This document shows positions 1,996 through 23,717 of a stretch of DNA of 26,849 nucleotides, piece by piece. The notes under the pieces were generated by a model. It did no database searches. It had not been told where the DNA came from and saw only the letters and a list, made by a program, of their open reading frames with translations. A program made the position numbers and the translations under genes. Numbering within the stretch: position 1 is the first letter of the stretch; the number at the start of each line of letters is the position of its first letter. The stretch spans positions 1 to 26,849 of IMG/VR virus record IMGVR_UViG_3300009182_000274, one strand, 5' to 3'. Origin of the DNA: a virus.

Positions 1996-2014
1996 ACTGT
2001 ATTCTCTTAACAAC

Positions 2015-2043
2015 AAGCAAGTCTTAGGACTTGCTTTTTTATT
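2015..2043 (+). terminator. Rho-independent terminator after the lysis genes
   Basis: A perfect 9-bp stem, AAGCAAGTC (2015-2023) with GACTTGCTT (2028-2036), a four-base TTAG loop and a T-rich tail. It ends the lysis operon. The 3' arm also supplies the -35 hexamer of the next promoter. Confidence 0.85.
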
Positions 2044-2059
2044 TGTTTTAAGGTATAAT
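2031..2059 (+). promoter_or_regulatory. Sigma70-like promoter for primase operon, overlapping the terminator
   Basis: -35 TTGCTT (2031-2036), 17-bp spacer, -10 TATAAT (2054-2059). The -35 lies inside the 3' arm of the upstream terminator. The -10 ends six bases before the primase ATG (2066), so the expected start of transcription falls on or next to the A of ATG, predicting a leaderless mRNA. Confidence 0.75.
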
Positions 2060-2065
2060 TACATT

Positions 2066-3085
2066 ATGCTACATATTGACATGAAATTCGCATCTTTGTT
2101 AGGCACGAGATTGCGCAACTTTGCAAAGAAGAATGACTATCTTTGGAACTACAGTTGTCCCATCTGTGGTGATTCTACAAAGAATCCTCGTAAAGCAAGA
2201 GGATATATCTACAAATTTAAACAAGACTTACTTGTGAAGTGTCACAAGTGTGGATACAGCACAAACATTGGTAATCTAATCAAGTATATTGATTCAAACC
2301 TATACGATGAATATGTTGTTGAGCGATACAAAAATGGCGCAACAAGATATAATGACCACAAAGACATTGCTGAAGTACTACCAACAACAGTTGAGTTAGA
2401 TCTTATTGATTCAACCCTTGATGAGTTATCTCGTATTGATAGAATGCGTGATGATCACCCTGCCGTGCAGTATGTTGATAGCAGAAAGATACCCAAGGAT
2501 AATTGGTCATTACTTTATTTCTCACCGAAATTTAAATCTTATGTTAATAGCATAACAGCCAAGTTTCCTGAACCTATTAATGATGAACACCCAAGGTTAG
2601 TTATTCCTTACTTTAATTCGCATGGTAAAGTAATCGCATTTCAAGGCAGAGCATTCGGTAAGGAAGAACCTAAGTATTATACCATCAAGATTGATGAAAC
2701 AGAGGAGAAAATATATGGACTTGAACGAATCGATTATGCTAGAAGAATCTATGTGGTTGAGGGACCAATTGACTCTCTTTTTCTTCCGAACGCAATCGCT
2801 GTATCAGGAAGCAGTTTTGATACCCCTACTATTAGGCAGTTGCTTACTAACGCAACCATAGTAATGGACAATGAACCCCGAAGCAAGGAAATAACAAAAC
2901 AACTTGCTAAGTATATAGACAAGGGGTATAATGTAGTTATGTATCCAGATACTGTGGTAGAAAAAGATATTAATGAAATGATATTGTCAGGACGAACTCC
3001 TGATCAAATTCTAGATCTCATAAATAACAATACCTTCTCTGGTATGGAAGCAAAGTTAAGATTTACAGAATGGAGAAAATGTTGA
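2066..3085 (+). CDS. DNA primase (T4 gp61-like)
   Basis: A 339-residue primase that makes RNA primers for lagging-strand synthesis at the phage fork. The N-terminal zinc ribbon has C31-P-I-C34 and C59-H-K-C62. The Toprim part shows YVVEGPIDSLFLP (Glu232) and VMDNEP (Asp268), the acidic residues that bind metal. Start: ATG 2066 fits the N-terminus I recall for the family (HID.K.A.LLG..L); a second ATG at 2081 would remove that match. There is no Shine-Dalgarno and the promoter -10 lies six bases upstream, so translation may be leaderless. The 3' end overlaps thyX by 16 bases. First gene of the replication and nucleotide operon. Confidence 0.9.
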   Translation: MLHIDMKFASLLGTRLRNFAKKNDYLWNYSCPICGDSTKNPRKARGYIYKFKQDLLVKCHKCGYSTNIGNLIKYIDSNLYDEYVVERYKNGATRYNDHKDIAEVLPTTVELDLIDSTLDELSRIDRMRDDHPAVQYVDSRKIPKDNWSLLYFSPKFKSYVNSITAKFPEPINDEHPRLVIPYFNSHGKVIAFQGRAFGKEEPKYYTIKIDETEEKIYGLERIDYARRIYVVEGPIDSLFLPNAIAVSGSSFDTPTIRQLLTNATIVMDNEPRSKEITKQLAKYIDKGYNVVMYPDTVVEKDINEMILSGRTPDQILDLINNNTFSGMEAKLRFTEWRKC

Positions 3086-3735
3086 AAGTACAGTTAATAA
3101 GTTATAGTCAGCCCGAGTCGTACTTTGTTGAAAATACCACAGAATTGATTGCATTTTGTGCCAGAGTTTCAAATCCAAGCAATCAAAACAACACAGATAC
3201 AGCAGAGAAGTTAATTCGTTATCTAGTAAAACATAAACATTGGTCACCACTTGAAATGGTTTCTATGTGTTTAGAGGTAGTAACTACTCGCGATATAGCA
3301 AGACAAATGTTGCGCCATCGTTCTTTTTCTTTCCAAGAATTCTCTCAGCGATATGCTGACCCAACAAAAGAATTAGATTTTGTTATACGAGAAGCAAGAC
3401 TCCAAGATCCAAAGAACAGACAAAATAGTATCGAATGCGACAATCCAACACTTCAAGCATTTTGGGAAACGCAACAAAAGCGTGTACTCGATGTGGCGCA
3501 AAGTGCCTATGGGTGGGCAATCGACAATGGTATTGCCAAAGAGCAAGCAAGAGCAGTCTTACCTGAAGGATTGACCGAGAGTCGATTATATATGAATGGG
3601 ACATTGCGTAGCTGGATTCACTTTATAGAACTCCGATCCGCAAATGGAACACAAAAAGAGCATCAGTTAATTGCCAAGGAATGTGCGAAAGTTATCGCTA
3701 CCGTATTTCCTATGGCATCTGAGTTTGTAGAATAA
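3070..3735 (+). CDS. thyX: Flavin-dependent thymidylate synthase ThyX
   Basis: A 221-residue enzyme that converts dUMP to dTMP using FAD, NADPH and methylene-tetrahydrofolate. The signature RHRX7S is present (R82-H83-R84, S92) within RHRSFSFQEFSQRY. The C-terminal part keeps LPEGLTESRLYMNGTLRSW, in the substrate-binding region. It makes the phage independent of host ThyA. The start is ambiguous: ATG 3070, ATG 3079 and TTG 3082 are in frame, and GGAG at 3072-3075 favours 3079 or 3082. It overlaps the primase end and is followed 23 bases later by nrdA, so it belongs to a deoxynucleotide-supply operon. Confidence 0.93.
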   Translation: MEKMLKVQLISYSQPESYFVENTTELIAFCARVSNPSNQNNTDTAEKLIRYLVKHKHWSPLEMVSMCLEVVTTRDIARQMLRHRSFSFQEFSQRYADPTKELDFVIREARLQDPKNRQNSIECDNPTLQAFWETQQKRVLDVAQSAYGWAIDNGIAKEQARAVLPEGLTESRLYMNGTLRSWIHFIELRSANGTQKEHQLIAKECAKVIATVFPMASEFVE

Positions 3736-3758
3736 AAAATATATGTTTGGAGTTTTAA

Positions 3759-5549
3759 ATGGCAGATGAAGTGCACGGGATAAGAGTTGACTACACAAAA
3801 GATAGTTTATTTGATGAATTGGGATTGCTTAGATTAAAAGAAAGTTACATGAAAGATGATGAGGTTAGTCCTCAAGAAAGGTTTGCATATGTTTCGAAAA
3901 CATTCGGAAGTGATCCTGAACACGCTCAGCGCATTTACAATTACGCCAGTAATCATTGGCTCAGCTATTCTACTCCAATCCTTTCTTTTGGTCGTTCTCG
4001 TCGTGGGCTACCCATTTCATGCTTTCTTAACTATATTGAAGATACAGCGGAGGGTCTAGTTGATAACCTATCTGAAACAAATTGGCTCTCTATGCTTGGA
4101 GGTGGTGTCGGCATCGGTTTCGGCATTCGCTCAGCGGATGATAAGTCTACTGGAGTTATGCCCCACCTTAAAATGTATGATGCATCATCTCTCGCTTACA
4201 GACAAGGTAGGACTCGTCGTGGGAGTTACGCTGCCTACTTGTCTATTGATCATCCAGATATTATCAATTTTCTAGAGATGCGCAAACCAACAGGCGATCA
4301 AAACATGCGTACTCTAAACATGCATCATGGAATTAATATTCCTGATCGGTTTATGGAAATTATTGAGCAATCTATGCTTGATACAAACTTCGATGACTCT
4401 TGGGAACTTGTTGACCCAGCATCCAAGGAAGTACGTGAAACAGTATCAGCGAAGGAACTTTGGCAGAAACTGCTTGAGATGCGTATGATGACTGGTGAAC
4501 CATATCTTCATTTCATCGATGAATCTAATCGTAAGATGCCGCAGCACTTAAAAGATCTTGGTTTAAAAATTAATCAATCAAATCTTTGCTCAGAAATTAT
4601 TCTACCAACAAATGAAAAGCGCACTGCTGTTTGTTGTTTGTCTTCATTAAACTTGGAGTACTATGATGAGTGGAAAGATGAACTACACTTCCTTCGCGAT
4701 GTTGCTGAAATGCTCGATAACGTGTTGGAGTATTTTATTACTAATGCACCTGATACCATTTCCAGGGCTGTATACTCTGCTACTCGTGAGCGTAGTATTG
4801 GCATTGGTGCCTTAGGATGGCATGCTTATCTGCAGAAGAATAATATTCCATGGGAATCATCATTGGCAGTTGGTAGAAACAAAAACATCTTTAAAACTAT
4901 AAGAGAGAAATTAGATGTCGCTAATAAAGAACTTGGATTGGAGAGAGGTGAAGCACCTGATGCGATGGGTACTGGGAATCGCTTTAGTCATCTTATGGCT
5001 ATTGCTCCCAATGCTTCTTCTTCCATTCTTATGGGCAATACTAGTCCTAGCATTGAACCTTATCGTGCCAATGCTTATCGTCAAGACACTCTTTCGGGTT
5101 CTCACCTGAATAAGAATCGTTACCTCGATAAAATTATTAAAGAGAAAGCAAAAGATGAAAATGAATACAATGAAATTTGGTCAAGTATCATTGCCAATGA
5201 CGGATCCGTACAACATATGGAATCCTTGGACGAATGGACAAGAGACGTATTCAAAACAAGTATGGAAATCGATCAGCGTTGGCTCATTCAACATGCTAGC
5301 GACAGACAAGAATATATTGACCAAGCACAATCAGTCAATCTTTTCTTTAGACCTGACAGCCATATTAAATACATCCATGCTGTTCACTTTATGGCATGGA
5401 AACAAAAACTAAAGACTCTCTACTATTGCCGCAGTGATAAGATTGCTAAGGCTGATAAAGTATCAAAGCGTATTGAGCGAGAAATCATAAAAGAAATTAA
5501 TTTGCATGACCTGACGGAAGGCACTGAATGTTTGGCATGCGAGGGATAA
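3759..5549 (+). CDS. nrdA: Ribonucleoside-diphosphate reductase alpha subunit, class Ia, short form
   Basis: A 596-residue catalytic subunit that reduces NDPs to dNDPs with NrdB. Active-site residues are all there: C88 (PISCFLN), the NLCSE motif N275/C277/E279, C292 or C293 as disulfide partner, the tyrosine pair Y555-Y556 for radical transfer, and a C-terminal CLAC (C591/C594) for re-reduction. It is shorter than the roughly 750 residues usual for NrdA: the protein starts close to the catalytic core and has no N-terminal ATP-cone, so feedback inhibition by dATP through that domain should be absent. TTTGGAG precedes ATG 3759. nrdB follows after one base. Confidence 0.95.
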   Translation: MADEVHGIRVDYTKDSLFDELGLLRLKESYMKDDEVSPQERFAYVSKTFGSDPEHAQRIYNYASNHWLSYSTPILSFGRSRRGLPISCFLNYIEDTAEGLVDNLSETNWLSMLGGGVGIGFGIRSADDKSTGVMPHLKMYDASSLAYRQGRTRRGSYAAYLSIDHPDIINFLEMRKPTGDQNMRTLNMHHGINIPDRFMEIIEQSMLDTNFDDSWELVDPASKEVRETVSAKELWQKLLEMRMMTGEPYLHFIDESNRKMPQHLKDLGLKINQSNLCSEIILPTNEKRTAVCCLSSLNLEYYDEWKDELHFLRDVAEMLDNVLEYFITNAPDTISRAVYSATRERSIGIGALGWHAYLQKNNIPWESSLAVGRNKNIFKTIREKLDVANKELGLERGEAPDAMGTGNRFSHLMAIAPNASSSILMGNTSPSIEPYRANAYRQDTLSGSHLNKNRYLDKIIKEKAKDENEYNEIWSSIIANDGSVQHMESLDEWTRDVFKTSMEIDQRWLIQHASDRQEYIDQAQSVNLFFRPDSHIKYIHAVHFMAWKQKLKTLYYCRSDKIAKADKVSKRIEREIIKEINLHDLTEGTECLACEG

Positions 5550-5550
5550 A

Positions 5551-6543
5551 ATGATTACAAAAACAAAAACAAAACTAACAGACCAACGTAACTACTTCAA
5601 ACCATTCAACTATCCATGGGCATATGATGCTTGGTTAAAACATGAGCAAGCGCACTGGCTTCACTCAGAAGTACCCATGGCTGAAGATGTAAAAGACTGG
5701 AAGAAGAAACTAACCAATGAAGAAAAGCAATTCCTAACCAACATCTTTCGTTTCTTCACTCAAGGTGACATTGATGTGGCAGGTGGTTACGTCAATAATT
5801 ACCTACCTTACTTTCCTCAACCAGAAGTGCGTATGATGCTGATGGGATTTGCGGCACGTGAAGCATTACATATTGCTGCGTATTCTCACCTTATTGAAAC
5901 ACTGGGTTTACCAGAATCTACATATAATCAATTCTTAGAGTATCAGGAGATGAAGGATAAACATGACTATGTTCTTGACCTTTCTAGTCGAAATGGGACA
6001 ATCGCTTCTACTGCTGAGCATATTGCTGTGTTTAGCGCATTTACTGAGGGAATGCAGCTTTTCAGTTCTTTTATTATGTTGCTTAATTTTCCTCGTCATG
6101 GCTTAATGAAAGGAATGGGTCAGATTGTTACTTGGTCTATTGTTGATGAAACAATGCATGCTGAATCAATGATTCGTTTATTCAAAGAATATGTAAAAGA
6201 AAACAATGAAATCTGGAACGATGAACTCAAGAGTAAGATTTATACCATTGCTGAAAAGATGGTTGAGTTGGAAGATAAGTTCATTGACCTTTGTTACCAA
6301 GGTGCTGACATGAGAGATTTGTCTGCTGCAGATGTTAAACATTATATTCGTTACATTGCTGATCGTAGACTTATATCTCTTGGTATGAAAGGTATCTTTA
6401 AAGTTAAAAAGAATCCACTACCATGGGTTGAAGAAATGATCAACGCACCAGTACATGGCAACTTCTTTGAGAATCGTGTAACTGACTACGCCAAAGGTGC
6501 TCTCTCAGGTGACTGGGGTGATGTTTGGGGGAAAGCAGCATGA
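5551..6543 (+). CDS. nrdB: Ribonucleoside-diphosphate reductase beta subunit, class Ia
   Basis: A 330-residue radical-generating subunit. The di-iron ligands can be read: D73 or D75, E104xxH107, E166 and E200xxH203. Y111 follows H107 by four residues in REALHIAAYSH, the position of the stable tyrosyl radical, so this is a tyrosyl-radical class Ia protein. It assembles with NrdA and passes the radical to the NrdA active-site cysteine. GAGGGAT before ATG 5551 acts as ribosome binding site. The stop overlaps the following small zinc-ribbon gene by ATGA. Length is slightly below the 375 of E. coli NrdB, normal for phage forms. Confidence 0.95.
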   Translation: MITKTKTKLTDQRNYFKPFNYPWAYDAWLKHEQAHWLHSEVPMAEDVKDWKKKLTNEEKQFLTNIFRFFTQGDIDVAGGYVNNYLPYFPQPEVRMMLMGFAAREALHIAAYSHLIETLGLPESTYNQFLEYQEMKDKHDYVLDLSSRNGTIASTAEHIAVFSAFTEGMQLFSSFIMLLNFPRHGLMKGMGQIVTWSIVDETMHAESMIRLFKEYVKENNEIWNDELKSKIYTIAEKMVELEDKFIDLCYQGADMRDLSAADVKHYIRYIADRRLISLGMKGIFKVKKNPLPWVEEMINAPVHGNFFENRVTDYAKGALSGDWGDVWGKAA

Positions 6544-6689
6544 CAACTAAACACTTTGAGTGTGAAGAATGTGGTGCTGAAGGAAAAATTATAGTAAAGG
6601 GTAGCGACGTTCGTCTAGAAGACATCGTCTACTGTCCTGTTTGTTCTGGTGACATCTTCGAAGAAGAGGACTTAGAAGAGGACGACTAA
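6540..6689 (+). CDS. Small zinc-ribbon protein
   Basis: A 49-residue protein with C8-x2-C11 and C32-x2-C35, the four cysteines of a zinc ribbon, and a very acidic tail (EEEDLEEDD). The start overlaps the nrdB stop by ATGA, so translation is coupled to nrdB. Small zinc-ribbon proteins often sit beside phage metabolic genes, but the role of this one is not known to me; a partner or redox role for RNR is only a guess from position. The stop codon is embedded in a CTAAATA box (6686-6692). Confidence 0.75.
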   Translation: MTTKHFECEECGAEGKIIVKGSDVRLEDIVYCPVCSGDIFEEEDLEEDD

Positions 6690-6692
6690 ATA
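6686..6692 (+). promoter_or_regulatory. CTAAATA box, candidate late promoter
   Basis: CTAAATA, close to the T4 late promoter TATAAATA, sits at the gene junction before the ATG at 6701. The same heptamer is at the junctions 8317 and 10574. The part TAA is also the stop codon, so some matches could be by chance. Confidence 0.35.
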
Positions 6693-6700
6693 AATCTACT

Positions 6701-7126
6701 ATGTGGATTTATAAAGATAATATTGTCGAAGAATTGCCAGAAGATTGTGTCGGATTTGTTTATGAAATAACAAACCTGACCACCAGCCGTAAGTATATTG
6801 GCAAGAAATTAGCCAAGTTTTCTAAAACAACCTATCGCATGGTTAAACTGAAAAACGGCACAAAAAAGAAAAAGAAAATCAGGTCTAAGATTGACTCAGA
6901 CTGGATGGAATATTATGGTTCTAGTATTGAATTGAGTAAGGATGTTGAAGAACTTGGTAAAGAGAACTTCAAACGAGAGATTCTTTTTTATTGTAAATCA
7001 AAAGCTGAATGTTCATACATAGAAGCCAGAGAACAATTTACTAGAAGAGTGTTGGAATCAATGGATTATTACAATGGTCAAATCAGTGTAAGAGTTCATG
7101 GTTCTCATATCAGAGGAAAGTTATGA
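6701..7126 (+). CDS. GIY-YIG endonuclease-like protein (SegE type)
   Basis: A 141-residue protein. The N-terminal GFVYEITNL...RKYIGKK is the GIY-YIG core in its VYE/YIG form. KIDSDWMEYYGSS and LGKENFKREIL continue the fold, and EAREQF supplies the conserved glutamate. It resembles the SegE-like GIY-YIG proteins widespread in T4-like phages. Whether it is a mobile homing enzyme or a domesticated repair or degradation nuclease cannot be told. There is no Shine-Dalgarno upstream of ATG 6701 that I can see; a CTAAATA box ends eight bases before it. It overlaps the next gene by four bases. Confidence 0.8.
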   Translation: MWIYKDNIVEELPEDCVGFVYEITNLTTSRKYIGKKLAKFSKTTYRMVKLKNGTKKKKKIRSKIDSDWMEYYGSSIELSKDVEELGKENFKREILFYCKSKAECSYIEAREQFTRRVLESMDYYNGQISVRVHGSHIRGKL

Positions 7127-8304
7127 CATACTTATTATATTTTACCGCTGTCTGTTTATCAGCAGTGGCAGCGTACTATTCAATTGCTGGATTGGCATCA
7201 ATCTTTGCAGCTGCAGTTATTCCTATTGTTGTAATGGGAACAGTGCTGGAGTTTGCTAAATTGGTTGTTGCATCATGGATCTATCGCAGTTGGAATCAAA
7301 TCCCAATGTTAATGCGTAGCTACTTTGTTGTGGCATTAATCATTCTCATGTCTTTAACATCGATGGGTATCTTTGGTTATCTATCAAAGGCACACTTGGA
7401 TCAAGCAGTACCGACAGGTGCTGTTACTTCACAGATAGCAATTTTTGACGAAAAGATTAGAACAGAAAAGGAAAACATTAATGCGTCAAGAGCCCAACTC
7501 AAACAAATGGACTCACAAGTTGACCAGACAATTGGAAGAAGCGAAGATGCGAAAGGAGTGGAGAGATCTCTACAGATTAGACGAGGACAGCAAAAGGAAA
7601 GAAGTTTACTACTTGCTGAGATTGGATCTTCTCAAACCAGAATCGCCAGACTAAATGAAGAAAGAGCACCGATCGCTGCGGAACTGAGAAAAGTTGAAGC
7701 AGAAGTTGGACCAATTAAATACATAGCAGCATTATTATACGGAGATAACCCTGACCAAAGTATTTTGGAAAAGGCTGTTCGTATTGTAATAATTATGATT
7801 GTGATAGTTTTTGATCCATTGGCTGTTTTGCTATTAATGGCAGCCAGTATACCACTTAAAAAAGAAGGAGAAACCAATGGCAACTCAACAGAAGAAACCA
7901 GCAGTAGCAGTGAAGTCAGCACCAGTGAAGAAAGTATCACCAGTCAAGACACCAGCGAAGAAGAAAGTTCAGTCAACAGAATTAAAGAACGATTCTTTAA
8001 CAAGTTTAGAAAACCAACCACAACAGTGGAACAACAAACTTCAGAAAGCAGTTCCAATTCAAGAGACAACAGTTCAAGTGGTCCCACAAGTGCAGGAGTC
8101 ACAACCAACACCGAAGATTCTACCACACCAGTGGATCATGCAGAAGCTGAGAAAACTGATTGGGAAATAAGTCCACCACCAGAGCCACATCAAGAAATTG
8201 AATTGGATTCTGCTGGTAGAGTAATGACACCAGTCCACCCAGACTTTATTGTTGACTGGAGTAACAAAGACACATCGCCCAAGGCAGTTCGAAAGCAAGA
8301 ATAA
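7123..8304 (+). CDS. Membrane protein with coiled coil and long Ser/Thr/Glu-rich tail
   Basis: A 393-residue protein. Hydrophobic segments are at about 3-20, 27-50 and 66-88, then a coiled-coil region (about 100-195), then another hydrophobic stretch (VRIVIIMIVIVFDPLAVLLLMAA, about 218-241). The core up to about 245 matches a membrane protein I recall from aquatic T4-like phages, function unknown. The rest is low-complexity S/T/E-rich sequence. A second gene in another frame, 7877-8170, lies entirely within the part encoding this tail. The start overlaps the previous gene by ATGA. A role in membrane or envelope modification is possible but unproven. Confidence 0.75.
   Translation: MTYLLYFTAVCLSAVAAYYSIAGLASIFAAAVIPIVVMGTVLEFAKLVVASWIYRSWNQIPMLMRSYFVVALIILMSLTSMGIFGYLSKAHLDQAVPTGAVTSQIAIFDEKIRTEKENINASRAQLKQMDSQVDQTIGRSEDAKGVERSLQIRRGQQKERSLLLAEIGSSQTRIARLNEERAPIAAELRKVEAEVGPIKYIAALLYGDNPDQSILEKAVRIVIIMIVIVFDPLAVLLLMAASIPLKKEGETNGNSTEETSSSSEVSTSEESITSQDTSEEESSVNRIKERFFNKFRKPTTTVEQQTSESSSNSRDNSSSGPTSAGVTTNTEDSTTPVDHAEAEKTDWEISPPPEPHQEIELDSAGRVMTPVHPDFIVDWSNKDTSPKAVRKQE
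7877..8170 (+). CDS. Nested overlapping gene: basic Lys/Ala/Pro-rich 97-residue protein
   Basis: A complete reading frame inside the tail of the 7123-8304 gene, in a different frame. AAGGAG at 7865-7870 lies six bases before ATG 7877, an optimal spacing and among the clearest ribosome binding sites in this region. The first 30 residues are rich in Lys, Ala, Val and Pro (SAPVKKVSPVKTPAKKKV), like histone H1-type or nucleoid-binding tails; the rest is Gln/Pro-rich. Codons use GCA, CCA, ACA and AAG in the style of neighbouring genes. I infer that it is expressed and may bind nucleic acid; an artefact of the overlying repetitive tail is the alternative. Confidence 0.55.
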   Translation: MATQQKKPAVAVKSAPVKKVSPVKTPAKKKVQSTELKNDSLTSLENQPQQWNNKLQKAVPIQETTVQVVPQVQESQPTPKILPHQWIMQKLRKLIGK

Positions 8305-8310
8305 ACCCTT

Positions 8311-8352
8311 ATATCCCTAAATAGTATTGTAAACTACAATACCTGGGGATAT
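8311..8352 (+). promoter_or_regulatory. Leader hairpin covering the ribosome binding site of the 8355 gene
   Basis: ATATCCC (8311-8317) pairs with GGGATAT (8346-8352), enclosing an inner stem GTATTGTA (8324-8331) with TACAATAC (8335-8342) and an AAC loop. The GGGG that would act as Shine-Dalgarno is in the outer stem. There is no T-run, so it is not a terminator. Confidence 0.5.
8317..8323 (+). promoter_or_regulatory. CTAAATA box, candidate late promoter
   Basis: Second copy of the CTAAATA heptamer, here in a true intergenic gap. It lies inside the leader hairpin region before ATG 8355. Confidence 0.35.
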
Positions 8353-8354
8353 AC

Positions 8355-8885
8355 ATGGAACAAAAAGAAGTAAAACCACTATCTAGATCCGAACGAGAAG
8401 CACTTGTAAAAGACAAGGCTGGCTGGGTAATTACCGTATTGGCTGCATTGCTCGCAGTTAACACTCTAATGAGTGGATCAAACTCAAGTAAAATCCTCAA
8501 CAACACAATTGAGGCAAACAATACTTGGGCATTCTATCAAGCAAAATCAATCAAACAAACCCTTGCTGAACTCCAACTGGAAAATGCCAAGGATCCTAAA
8601 AAGATTAGACAAATAGCAGCCAAGATCGAACGCTATGAATCTGATCCAGCAACTGGTGAGGGTAAAAAAGAGTTGATGGCAAAAGCACGTGGTCTAGAAG
8701 CCGAACGTGCAGATGCTAGACAACGCAGCCCATACTACACATACGCTGGTAGCATTTTCCAAATTTCAATTGTACTATTAACTGCAGCTATTCTTGCAGT
8801 TAGCATGCCTCTTTTCTGGGGTAGCATGGTAGTGGGCAGTTTTGGGGCAGTGCTAATGTCACAAGCAATCTGGTTAATATTGTAA
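8355..8885 (+). CDS. DUF4337-like membrane protein
   Basis: A 176-residue protein with hydrophobic segments at about 25-41, 131-148 and 153-174. Between them is a charged helical domain. The sequence NNTWAFYQAKSIKQTLAEL is the hallmark I recall for DUF4337 proteins, a family of unknown function found in bacteria and phages. Its start lies three bases beyond a hairpin that encloses the ribosome binding site. It is the first of a run of membrane and secreted proteins (8355-10577), which suggests a shared role at the cell envelope, but the function cannot be stated. Confidence 0.75.
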   Translation: MEQKEVKPLSRSEREALVKDKAGWVITVLAALLAVNTLMSGSNSSKILNNTIEANNTWAFYQAKSIKQTLAELQLENAKDPKKIRQIAAKIERYESDPATGEGKKELMAKARGLEAERADARQRSPYYTYAGSIFQISIVLLTAAILAVSMPLFWGSMVVGSFGAVLMSQAIWLIL

Positions 8886-8895
8886 AGGCAGTTTT

Positions 8896-9513
8896 ATGGC
8901 TGATACACCAAAACAAGATTCATCCTGGATATCTTCCGCTGTCGATTTAATTAAGTGGATAGACAATCCATTTAAGTTATTTGAAGTTATCATCCTAGCA
9001 ACTCTAATTTTCGTTGGTTACATTTGTTGGGACAGTCGTACTGTAATTCTAGAAGCAATCACCAATCAAAACAAACACCCAGAGTTAAAAGATACCTCAG
9101 GTCTAATTCCAATTGTCACCAAACTCGCAGAAGATGTTGGAGCAAATACAGTTGTAATCTATAAGGCGAATCTCTATACCAACTCAAGAACAGTTGCGTA
9201 TGCGAAGAATGAAAAGGGTGAGGACAAATCTATTGTAAATAATACAAGCAGTTTATTCACAGATTCTCCAGAAAGAACCAAGGCAATGATAGGAATGCTC
9301 GGTGGTGATGTGGTTTGTGACAAGATAGAATTGATCACGAAACCAGATGGATGGGAAGCAAAGCAAAGTGGTAGATTCATATGCCGAAGCGCAGTTCCCC
9401 CAGATGTTGGATCTTTCGCTGGTTACATTAGTTTAACATGGAAAGAAGAACCAAAGGACTTACCTTCTATAAAAACTGCAATAAAACTAGCATCAGAAGA
9501 GATGGACAAATGA
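8896..9513 (+). CDS. Conserved phage protein with one membrane segment
   Basis: A 205-residue protein. A single hydrophobic segment is at about 27-45 (KLFEVIILATLIFVGYICW), followed by a soluble domain with a predicted alpha/beta pattern (VTKLAEDVGANTVVIYKANLYTN..., LGGDVVCDKIELITK). The soluble part is reminiscent of GAF-like sensor folds, but I see no ligand-binding signature and make no functional claim. I recall similar proteins beside membrane proteins in T4-like aquatic phages. AGGCAG before ATG 8896 is a weak ribosome binding site. The stop at 9511-9513 abuts the next ATG. Confidence 0.7.
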   Translation: MADTPKQDSSWISSAVDLIKWIDNPFKLFEVIILATLIFVGYICWDSRTVILEAITNQNKHPELKDTSGLIPIVTKLAEDVGANTVVIYKANLYTNSRTVAYAKNEKGEDKSIVNNTSSLFTDSPERTKAMIGMLGGDVVCDKIELITKPDGWEAKQSGRFICRSAVPPDVGSFAGYISLTWKEEPKDLPSIKTAIKLASEEMDK

Positions 9514-9789
9514 ATGAAATTTCTTTTGTTCCTGTTGTTGTGTGTAACTGCTACTACTTCATCGCAAGAAGCAGAAATATCATGCAATATCGGAGAGTTT
9601 AAGCATATAAGTTTTACAGTGCATGAGCCAAGCGAACGTAAACAATTAACATTATTATGGGTAAAGAAAAACAGATGCAATAAAGAAGAACTTACTCTGA
9701 TCTACAATAACCTCTCTGCATGGCTAGGCACTGCCGATAATTTAGAAATAAGAAATTTAATAGAGACAAAATATAGAAATGAGAAGTAA
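9514..9789 (+). CDS. Small secreted hypothetical protein
   Basis: A 91-residue protein with a short positively charged start and a hydrophobic core (KFLLFLLLCVTATTSS), consistent with a Sec signal peptide cleaved near residue 17-18. The mature part has two cysteines (CNIGEF and NRCNKEEL) that could form a disulfide in the periplasm. I do not recognise the family. It follows directly on the single-TM protein at 8896-9513 and is likely in the same operon. A related layout (signal peptide, then short cysteine-containing domain) occurs at 15178. Confidence 0.65.
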   Translation: MKFLLFLLLCVTATTSSQEAEISCNIGEFKHISFTVHEPSERKQLTLLWVKKNRCNKEELTLIYNNLSAWLGTADNLEIRNLIETKYRNEK

Positions 9790-9797
9790 AGGTTTAG

Positions 9798-10577
9798 ATG
9801 GATCCGTTAACACTCTTTGCTTTGGCGAATGGGGCAGTTTCAGCTGTCAAAGCAGGGTGCAAACTTTATAAAGATATAAAGGGTGCAGCTGGGGATGTAA
9901 AAGATGTTCTCAAAGATCTAGATCACCAGTTCCATGATGCTTACGCAGCCAAGGGTAAGGCTCCATCTCCAGAAGCCAAAAAACAATTTCAAGAAGAAAA
10001 AACTCGTGTAGTTGAGTTAAACAAAAAGTCTGCCGAAACCAACAATATCTATGGTGAGATCGGTGATCATCTTGGCGTATACTACGACAACTACTATAAG
10101 TGTATAGCAGTATTTGAAGAAGAAGAGAAACGAAGTAAAACAGAAGTATACACAGGTGATGCGAGTCTAGGTAAGCGTGCTCTTCAACGTGTTCTAATGA
10201 AGAAACAGTTAGAGCAGATGGGTACTGAGTTACAAGAATTGATGATTTATCAAAGTCCGCCAGAACTTGGTGCACTTTGGACTGATGTTAACGCAATGAT
10301 GAAGAAGCTGGGTGCTGAACAAAAGGTTCTCCTCACAAAGCAAATTCAAATACAGGCTGTACAAGAGAAACGTCGTAGAGCAAGACGCAAGCAATTGCAT
10401 GTAGAATTTATGGTTGGTGTTGCAATTTTATTCATTATGTTTACGATGGCTGGTATGTTTATGTGGGTGGCATACGATCGACAACAAAAGTATCCACAGT
10501 TTGGGAATGAATTATTTCCTAAAACTGAAAGCCAAAGAAGAGAAGATGCTGCACCAAAACGCTATGTTGGACGCTAA
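9798..10577 (+). CDS. Coiled-coil protein with C-terminal membrane segment
   Basis: A 259-residue protein, largely helical and charged (about 25-200), with a membrane segment at about 207-227 (VGVAILFIMFTMAGMFMWVAY) and a short polar tail. N-terminal MDPLTLFALANGAVSAVKAGCKLYKDIKGA is glycine and alanine rich and may be amphipathic. I recall proteins of this type from aquatic T4-like phages without a known function. It closes the membrane-protein run that begins at 7123. The stop codon is part of a CTAAATA box at 10574-10580. Confidence 0.7.
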   Translation: MDPLTLFALANGAVSAVKAGCKLYKDIKGAAGDVKDVLKDLDHQFHDAYAAKGKAPSPEAKKQFQEEKTRVVELNKKSAETNNIYGEIGDHLGVYYDNYYKCIAVFEEEEKRSKTEVYTGDASLGKRALQRVLMKKQLEQMGTELQELMIYQSPPELGALWTDVNAMMKKLGAEQKVLLTKQIQIQAVQEKRRRARRKQLHVEFMVGVAILFIMFTMAGMFMWVAYDRQQKYPQFGNELFPKTESQRREDAAPKRYVGR

Positions 10578-10580
10578 ATA
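10574..10580 (+). promoter_or_regulatory. CTAAATA box, candidate late promoter
   Basis: Third CTAAATA heptamer at a gene junction, 34 bases upstream of the nuclease gene, leaving room for a leader. Overlaps the TAA stop of the preceding gene. Confidence 0.35.
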
Positions 10581-10614
10581 GATGAGTAACCCATAACCCA
10601 ATGATTGGAAATTA

Positions 10615-11433
10615 ATGAAAAAGATCTTAGCAATTCTACTGTGTGTAACAAGTCTTAGTGCCTTCTCTTGGACTCAACGAGCACCTTTCCCTATCCAACA
10701 GTGCCAAGTCCACGCACCCTATGGATTCCCTCAAGCAGCTGGTGTTCAACCACTATGTCAACAGGCATATCTAGTTGGCTATGATGCCCCTGCCAAACTA
10801 CCAAGGTTTGTAACCTATGAACTACTTCCACAAAATGCGTTGGGTTGTGTGGCTCGTACTAATGCTTTTGCCGCCAATCAGTATGTTCCTAATGGTGCTG
10901 TTCCTGCTGACTATGTTGGAACTAATTACGATAAAGGACATATGGCACCTGATGGCGATCTATCTTGGAACACACAAGTAGAGTTTGAATCATTCCTTAT
11001 GACCAACATGAGCCCACAAGCAGGTTCACTAAATCGTGGTATTTGGAAACTATTAGAAACATCAGTTCGTGGTTGGGTTGTTCAACGCAATCAATCATAC
11101 ACAGTATATGTCGGTGGATTATATAACGCAACTGACAAGCGTATCGGTAATGGTGTAGTTGTGCCACATGCTTTCTATAAGATTGTTATCAACAACCAAA
11201 CTAAAGAAATTGCTGGCTGGTCATTTCCCCATGTTGCTCCATATCCAAATTTAGGTAACGATTTAACTAAATTCCGTATGCCAGTTGCTCAGATTATGCA
11301 AACAGCTGGTGTTACATATGCTTTCCCACAAGGTGCTATAGAATTGACTCCAGGAAAAGAATGGCCAGTTGATTATGGAGCACTAACTAAAGCAAAGCGT
11401 GCCAAGTGTGGTGCGACTGCTTCTGACGACTAA
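10615..11433 (+). CDS. Secreted NUC-type (DNA/RNA non-specific) endonuclease
   Basis: A 272-residue protein with a Sec signal peptide (MKKILAILLCVTSLSAFSW, cleavage near 18). The active-site motif is DKGHMAPDGD with His109 as general base, and NMSPQAGSLNRGIW supplies Asn140, the magnesium ligand of the Serratia nuclease family. Such enzymes cut DNA and RNA without sequence preference. With a signal peptide it should act in the periplasm or outside, where it could digest released or incoming DNA. It heads the accessory operon that goes on to iscU and the lipid genes. The closest ATG has no strong Shine-Dalgarno; the signal peptide fixes the start. Confidence 0.88.
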   Translation: MKKILAILLCVTSLSAFSWTQRAPFPIQQCQVHAPYGFPQAAGVQPLCQQAYLVGYDAPAKLPRFVTYELLPQNALGCVARTNAFAANQYVPNGAVPADYVGTNYDKGHMAPDGDLSWNTQVEFESFLMTNMSPQAGSLNRGIWKLLETSVRGWVVQRNQSYTVYVGGLYNATDKRIGNGVVVPHAFYKIVINNQTKEIAGWSFPHVAPYPNLGNDLTKFRMPVAQIMQTAGVTYAFPQGAIELTPGKEWPVDYGALTKAKRAKCGATASDD

Positions 11434-15655: not shown

Positions 15656-15676
15656 AGGGTTATCTCTCCTCTTGCA

Positions 15677-15700
15677 AACCCCACCCTGCGTGGGGTTTTT
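15677..15700 (+). terminator. Rho-independent terminator
   Basis: Stem AACCCCAC (15677-15684) with GTGGGGTT (15690-15697), loop CCTGC, then a T-run to 15700. Ends the accessory operon. The -35 of the next promoter begins eight bases after the T-run. Confidence 0.9.
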
Positions 15701-23693: not shown

Positions 23694-23717
23694 AACCCTA
23701 CACCTTGTAGGGTTTTT
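23694..23717 (+). terminator. Rho-independent terminator
   Basis: Stem AACCCTACA (23694-23702) with TGTAGGGTT (23706-23714), loop CCT, T-run to 23717. The next -35 begins 12 bases later, another terminator-promoter cassette. Confidence 0.9.

Follow-up and report, generated by a model that had tools for sequence, protein, structure and literature searches.

A hairpin leader overlapping a late-promoter box as a putative transcript-start-dependent translational switch in an uncultivated T4-like phage

The leader of a DUF4337 membrane-protein gene in an uncultivated virus genome probably acts, with a probability of about 0.75 on the evidence of its sequence, as a translational switch that is set by where the transcript starts and that lies where a nucleotide-metabolism operon gives way to a late gene. 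RNA entering from upstream would carry a 5' arm, made up in part of transcribed promoter-box sequence, that would fold onto the Shine-Dalgarno of DUF4337 and bury the site, while RNA begun at the CTAAATA late promoter would lack this arm and leave the ribosome site exposed. Under this model the read-through RNA would come from the early or middle phase of infection, late transcripts would begin near position 8329, and translation would be strongly repressed by the hairpin. Its purpose would be to keep DUF4337, as a late membrane protein, unmade during transcription of the nrd operon.

Gene neighborhood of the leader

The stretch of DNA analysed (the window) is the complete virus record of 26,849 bases. 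Genes on the + strand were ordered as primase-like, thyX, nrdA, nrdB, a SegE-like GIY-YIG gene, a 393-aa MTYLLF membrane protein and DUF4337, with the leader occupying the gap between the last two. The MTYLLF gene (7123-8304), used as the junction marker in relatives, has its stop codon at 8302-8304, which ends 6 nt 5' of the outer arm of the hairpin. The DUF4337-like gene anticipated downstream in a preliminary description of this DNA was identified by a PF14235 match (8355-8885, + strand, E = 4.7e-33). Gene families and a terminator scan indicated a probable read-through unit from the primase-like to the MTYLLF gene (2066-8304, + strand), since from 2036 to 8311 the + strand had a single terminator-like site, a weak one inside nrdB (6503-6518). 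A terminator-like hairpin followed by TTTTATTT was located at 2015-2036 in the gap 5' of the primase-like gene and would set the nrd unit apart from the genes upstream. Further upstream, a coiled-coil membrane protein gene followed by a Rz1-like lysis protein (1406-1669, PF23793, E = 2e-7) in the region 960-1669 are probably spanins.

DNA and protein searches of a collection of 50,697 isolated-phage records at E 1e-5 returned no match for the leader region or DUF4337, and no annotated relative was therefore usable. DUF4337 had 387 candidate stretches in IMG/VR yet no match among those phage records.

Anatomy and stability of the hairpin

The hairpin was confirmed. The inner 8-bp stem (GTATTGTA at 8324-8331 and TACAATAC at 8335-8342), its AAC loop (8332-8334) and the 7-bp core of the outer stem (ATATCCC at 8311-8317 and GGGATAT at 8346-8352) lie exactly where they had first been described, and the outer helix is longer in the minimum-energy fold, with 10 bp that pair 8310-8319 with 8344-8353 and include one T-G pair. 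As had also been proposed, the outer stem encloses the likely Shine-Dalgarno of the DUF4337-like gene, GGGGAT at 8345-8350, which is inside the 3' arm and is followed by the ATG at 8355. The CTAAATA box (8317-8323, + strand) had been placed between the arms, which holds for most of the box; the 5' arm includes its C in the 7-bp stem, or its CTA in the 10-bp helix.

The mean pair probability of the outer helix was 0.997-0.998 and was stable when the folded region was widened from 8300-8370 to 7900-8700, and that of the inner stem, also recovered by a perfect-hairpin scan, was 0.966. Leader folding energy had a z of -4.2 against 100 dinucleotide shuffles (row L001, the window's own sequence). 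Among 13,400 overlapping 50-nt + strand stretches 39 equalled or exceeded its stability, which places the leader in the most stable 0.3% without making it unique, and it is one of eight perfect hairpins in the window (at least 8 bp, loop of 3-8). Two more perfect hairpins, of 9 bp, were between or near genes at 15676-15698 and 23694-23714. Reading the leader as an intrinsic terminator was rejected, as the stem is followed by CATGGAACAAA with no T run and was unlisted in scans of 7000-10000 and 2000-8400. An Rfam search of the window gave three tRNAs only above the gathering score, and the leader matched no known RNA family.

Effect of the transcript start on the ribosome site

The computed cost of opening the Shine-Dalgarno (8345-8350) was about 12 kcal/mol in the read-through RNA and about 2 kcal/mol in the late RNA. 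For the segment from 14 to 5 nt before the start codon the values were 16.0 and 2.3 kcal/mol, a difference of 13.7 kcal/mol that was the largest of 79 related leaders and exceeded all 299 control gene starts (maximum 7.8). In the computed folds any transcript start from about 8316 onward abolished the main effect. The folds showed that read-through RNA buries the DUF4337 Shine-Dalgarno and that late RNA exposes the site at small cost. The claim that RNA starting upstream is closed was thus borne out by the opening cost of 12-16 kcal/mol. The claim that late-started RNA is open stood as to the opening cost of only about 2 kcal/mol and was weakened by residual pairing, as the Shine-Dalgarno was still paired, weakly and with a probability of about 0.65, with the start of the coding region.

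The late-promoter box and late transcription

The putative late-promoter motif reported for the T4-like phage Aeh1 is CTAAATA, beginning at -12 in the description of that motif (PMC1524935). The box in the window, a late-promoter -10-type box that is kept in relatives and overlaps the 5' arm, therefore places the predicted late start at 8329 (+ strand), within the range of 8325-8330 previously expected for a 5' end. Judged by its position, the box is placed so that late RNA would lack the 5' arm. CTAAATA occurred 3 times in the window against 5.3 expected, and with no such enrichment the significance of the box comes from the relatives.

Searches of six long related records identified homologues of the late sigma factor gp55 in all six (E 5.8e-23 to 1.6e-18; the search covered the relatives rather than the window) and of gp23 in all six, with a TAAATA box 5' of a + strand open frame at three of the six gp23 loci. 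Summed over these records, [AC]CTAAATA followed by ATG occurred 70 versus 2 times between the strands and the reversed pattern 37 versus 40 times, a bias that would suit a strand-specific signal. No junction leader in the six long gp55 records switched by at least 3 kcal/mol, so that no single record was seen to combine the late machinery with one of the strongest hairpins. Two boxed genes elsewhere in long related records, L480 (32 nt from box to start) and L504 (38 nt), had computed switches of 7.8 and 6.2 kcal/mol, which makes them candidates for this type of control at other sites in these genomes. A second intergenic CTAAATA in the window (10574-10615) is located 41 nt 5' of an endonuclease gene (PF01223) and by eye had no upstream arm.

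The SegE-like gene (6701-7126) in the same operon has a box-hairpin that is different from the DUF4337 leader. Its CTAAATA (6686-6692) ends 8 nt 5' of the ATG, and a stem within 6684-6712 (6690-6699 with 6703-6712) holds the start codon in its loop, with no Shine-Dalgarno. Among 93 unique relatives an NTAAATA box ended 6-8 nt before the ATG in 61 and 25-30 nt before it in 19, and 13 had none; the stems vary in sequence yet pair (eight representatives; 26 of 20,000 permutations). A late start there would yield a nearly leaderless mRNA with 0-3 nt. A literature text search returned no paper containing every term of the query.

Conservation of the box and rebuilding of the stem at related junctions

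Relatives of DUF4337 were gathered as the best 80 of 387 stretches from one scan plus three more scans, giving at least 272 loci in addition to the window. Of these loci 269 had a usable start and yielded 105 unique 60-nt leaders with CTAAATA in 34, ATAAATA in 32, TTAAATA in two and no box in 37. Relatives of the junction were collected by two scans with the upstream MTYLLF protein (best 80 loci each) and the set was enlarged to at least 424 loci, with 29 loci lacking a called start and three that were too short left out of the junction leaders. The loci retained gave 93 unique leaders at the junction after the nrd operon, of which 82 had CTAAATA, at an offset of -8 to +52 nt from the upstream stop codon. 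The gene after the junction was DUF4337 in some relatives and belonged to several other families in the rest. Outer stems were rebuilt with different sequences, including GAAACCT/AGGTTTC (L074), AAAACC/GGTTTT (L050), GTAATCCT/AGGATTAC (L331), CCCTAAAT/ATTTAGGG (L349) and AACCTTTAGTT/AACTAAAGGTT (L326), and several relatives use the box itself as the partner of UUUAGG in the Shine-Dalgarno region.

The pairing tests used 79 junction leaders in 25 clusters, which were built by text similarity rather than from a tree so that some relatedness remains; L372, L346 and L418 were dropped for their box-to-start distance and the start of L054 was shifted 12 nt by hand to a better start. Own arms paired more strongly than swapped partners over the 25 clusters (-8.4 versus -6.9 kcal/mol; median p 5e-4 over 20 representative draws, largest 3.5e-3). 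The excess was clear where DUF4337 was next (10 clusters, p 2.5e-4) and where the box was at most 50 nt from the start (13 clusters, p 2.5e-4), weak where another gene was next (18 clusters, median p 0.028, up to 0.20), and no partner signal was seen at box-to-start distances above 50 nt (p 0.16) or at 125 other gene starts without a box used as a control (p 0.62). When each cluster was represented by its first member, the observed mean was reached in 1 of 20,000 permutations; mean z was -0.53 with only 2 of 25 clusters at a rank of 0.05 or below, and the own-pairing signal therefore comes from a strong subset. DUF4337 leaders with CTAAATA favoured their own Shine-Dalgarno region over regions taken from other clusters (23 clusters, mean z -0.72; five at a rank of 0.05 or below), and those with ATAAATA had no such preference (17 clusters, mean z +0.09).

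The cluster average of the junction-leader folding energy was a z of -1.9. The opening-cost difference between read-through and late RNA was at least 3 kcal/mol in 35 of 79 leaders and at least 5 in 13, compared with 17 and 4, respectively, of the 299 control gene starts from the same loci. By cluster means 10 of 25 reached 3 kcal/mol (Fisher p 4e-6 versus controls, with cluster means set against single control starts). The remaining 44 leaders, mostly long ones, gained less than 3 kcal/mol and had little or no switch, including L109, L110, L036, L053, L061, L352 and L360 with a gain of nil or below. A sub-family of nine leaders had 92% of helix cells paired versus 35-53% when slid, and its covariation score was weak, being reached by 52 of 500 shuffles. 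On cluster average the Shine-Dalgarno was paired with a higher probability than with a shuffled 5' part (p 0.006), and with nearly the same probability as with swapped 5' parts (0.63 versus 0.59, p 0.28) because most Shine-Dalgarnos are matched by the box's CC in any case.

A switch of at least 3 kcal/mol was present in 18 of 29 leaders with DUF4337 next and in 17 of 50 with another gene next. As 17 of the 35 switch leaders precede another gene, the element appears to go with the junction rather than with DUF4337; these leaders and the ATAAATA DUF4337 leaders without own pairing weaken the notion that DUF4337 is the owner of the element. Generality to any boxed leader was also rejected, since only 3 of 26 other leaders with CTAAATA and 2 of 28 with ATAAATA, a set that includes some DUF4337 leaders, reached 3 kcal/mol. 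The earlier proposal that translation is confined to late transcripts is supported by structure and comparison, with the box conserved and pairing predicted to bury the Shine-Dalgarno in 35 of 79 leaders.

Comparison with T4 leaders

Long transcripts of T4 genes e, soc, 49 and I-TevI are described as folding over the ribosome site, with late promoters located in the helix's 5' strand and with translation of gene e repressed 100-fold (PMC3014915), and I-TevII, I-TevIII, segB and Aeh1 mobE are given as further cases of such leaders (PMC2988022). The likeness to some T4 genes suggested at the outset fits the anatomy of the gene e and I-TevI arrangement as outlined in the former source. As in T4 gene e, a long early RNA would cover the Shine-Dalgarno, the late promoter falls within the 5' side of the helix, and the end of an upstream gene closely precedes it; in T4, nudE ends 37 nt 5' of gene e and the gene e fold begins at -36. 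When the T4 gene e leader was folded in the same way, its energy was -14.9 kcal/mol in the presence of the 5' arm, and -2.8 and 0.0 for RNA beginning at its two late boxes. The gene and sequence are different, however, and the box is CTAAATA here and TATAAATA in T4; moreover, gene e has mapped ends and a measured 100-fold repression, whereas the late end and the repression are predictions for the window leader.

Leaders of T4 I-TevI, segB and Aeh1 mobE likewise have a stable stem that hides the ribosome site on early or middle RNA and an adjoining late promoter that frees it, according to the account of these genes in PMC2988022, but they serve homing endonucleases while DUF4337 is a membrane protein. 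Genes soc and 49, grouped with gene e in PMC3014915, are likened by their description as having inhibitory structures at initiation regions. The split ribosome sites of T4 genes 25 and 38 share a hairpin within the initiation region, although the stem described there is between the Shine-Dalgarno and the AUG and aids initiation (PMC3014915), whereas here the Shine-Dalgarno is inside the stem. By every feature visible in its sequence, the leader would work like the known T4 cases.

Alternative explanations

The spacing of the genes also suits translational coupling, in which ribosomes ending the MTYLLF gene would melt the 5' arm so that DUF4337 is translated in step on the same transcript, with the late promoter secondary. 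Of 82 boxed leaders, 30 have an upstream stop codon overlapping the end of their box and seven more have it inside the box (counted from offsets of -8 and -4); in the window that codon ends 6 nt short of the outer arm. The box is conserved, however, even up to 52 nt past the upstream stop, and in T4 the gene upstream of e lies equally close, yet e is reported as 100-fold repressed (PMC3014915); we regard coupling as unlikely. An inverted repeat over a late promoter could instead be an operator, or the stem could set RNA stability or cleavage. I-TevI is described as repressing its own late promoter through an operator located there (PMC2988022) and the palindrome in the window covers both box and start site, but stem sequence varies by lineage while Shine-Dalgarno pairing recurs, which suits pairing over a fixed recognition sequence and makes a protein-binding or processing element improbable.

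The least probable reading, with a very small share of our belief, is that the structure has no function and reflects chance pairing, within AT-rich sequence, between CC in the box and GG in the Shine-Dalgarno. The near-equal pairing by swapped 5' parts on cluster average (p 0.28) and the 44 of 79 relatives without a clear switch speak for chance pairing; against it are the own-partner excess in relatives, absent at the 125 control starts, and the 13.7 kcal/mol switch that tops all 299 controls.

Significance

The transcript-start-dependent switch favoured here would extend a classic T4 control, known for few genes in cultured phages, to an uncultivated T4-like phage family, and the comparative test found that the stems at a single genomic boundary are remade in new sequence, with changing genes downstream. 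Literature text searches returned one result for the motif and nothing on such a mechanism in metagenomes nor on DUF4337 in phages. A broader proposal, to which we give somewhat less than an even chance, is that of a position-bound translational insulator, in which the box's own transcript would serve as the anti-Shine-Dalgarno arm in read-through RNA and each exchanged downstream gene would be refitted with a new arm, the switch belonging to the boundary at the end of the nrd operon rather than to any gene. The fresh aspect appears to be this tie to the operon boundary whatever gene follows. If true, the rule of a box plus an arm against the next Shine-Dalgarno would predict which genes need early silence, here that of the DUF4337 membrane protein.
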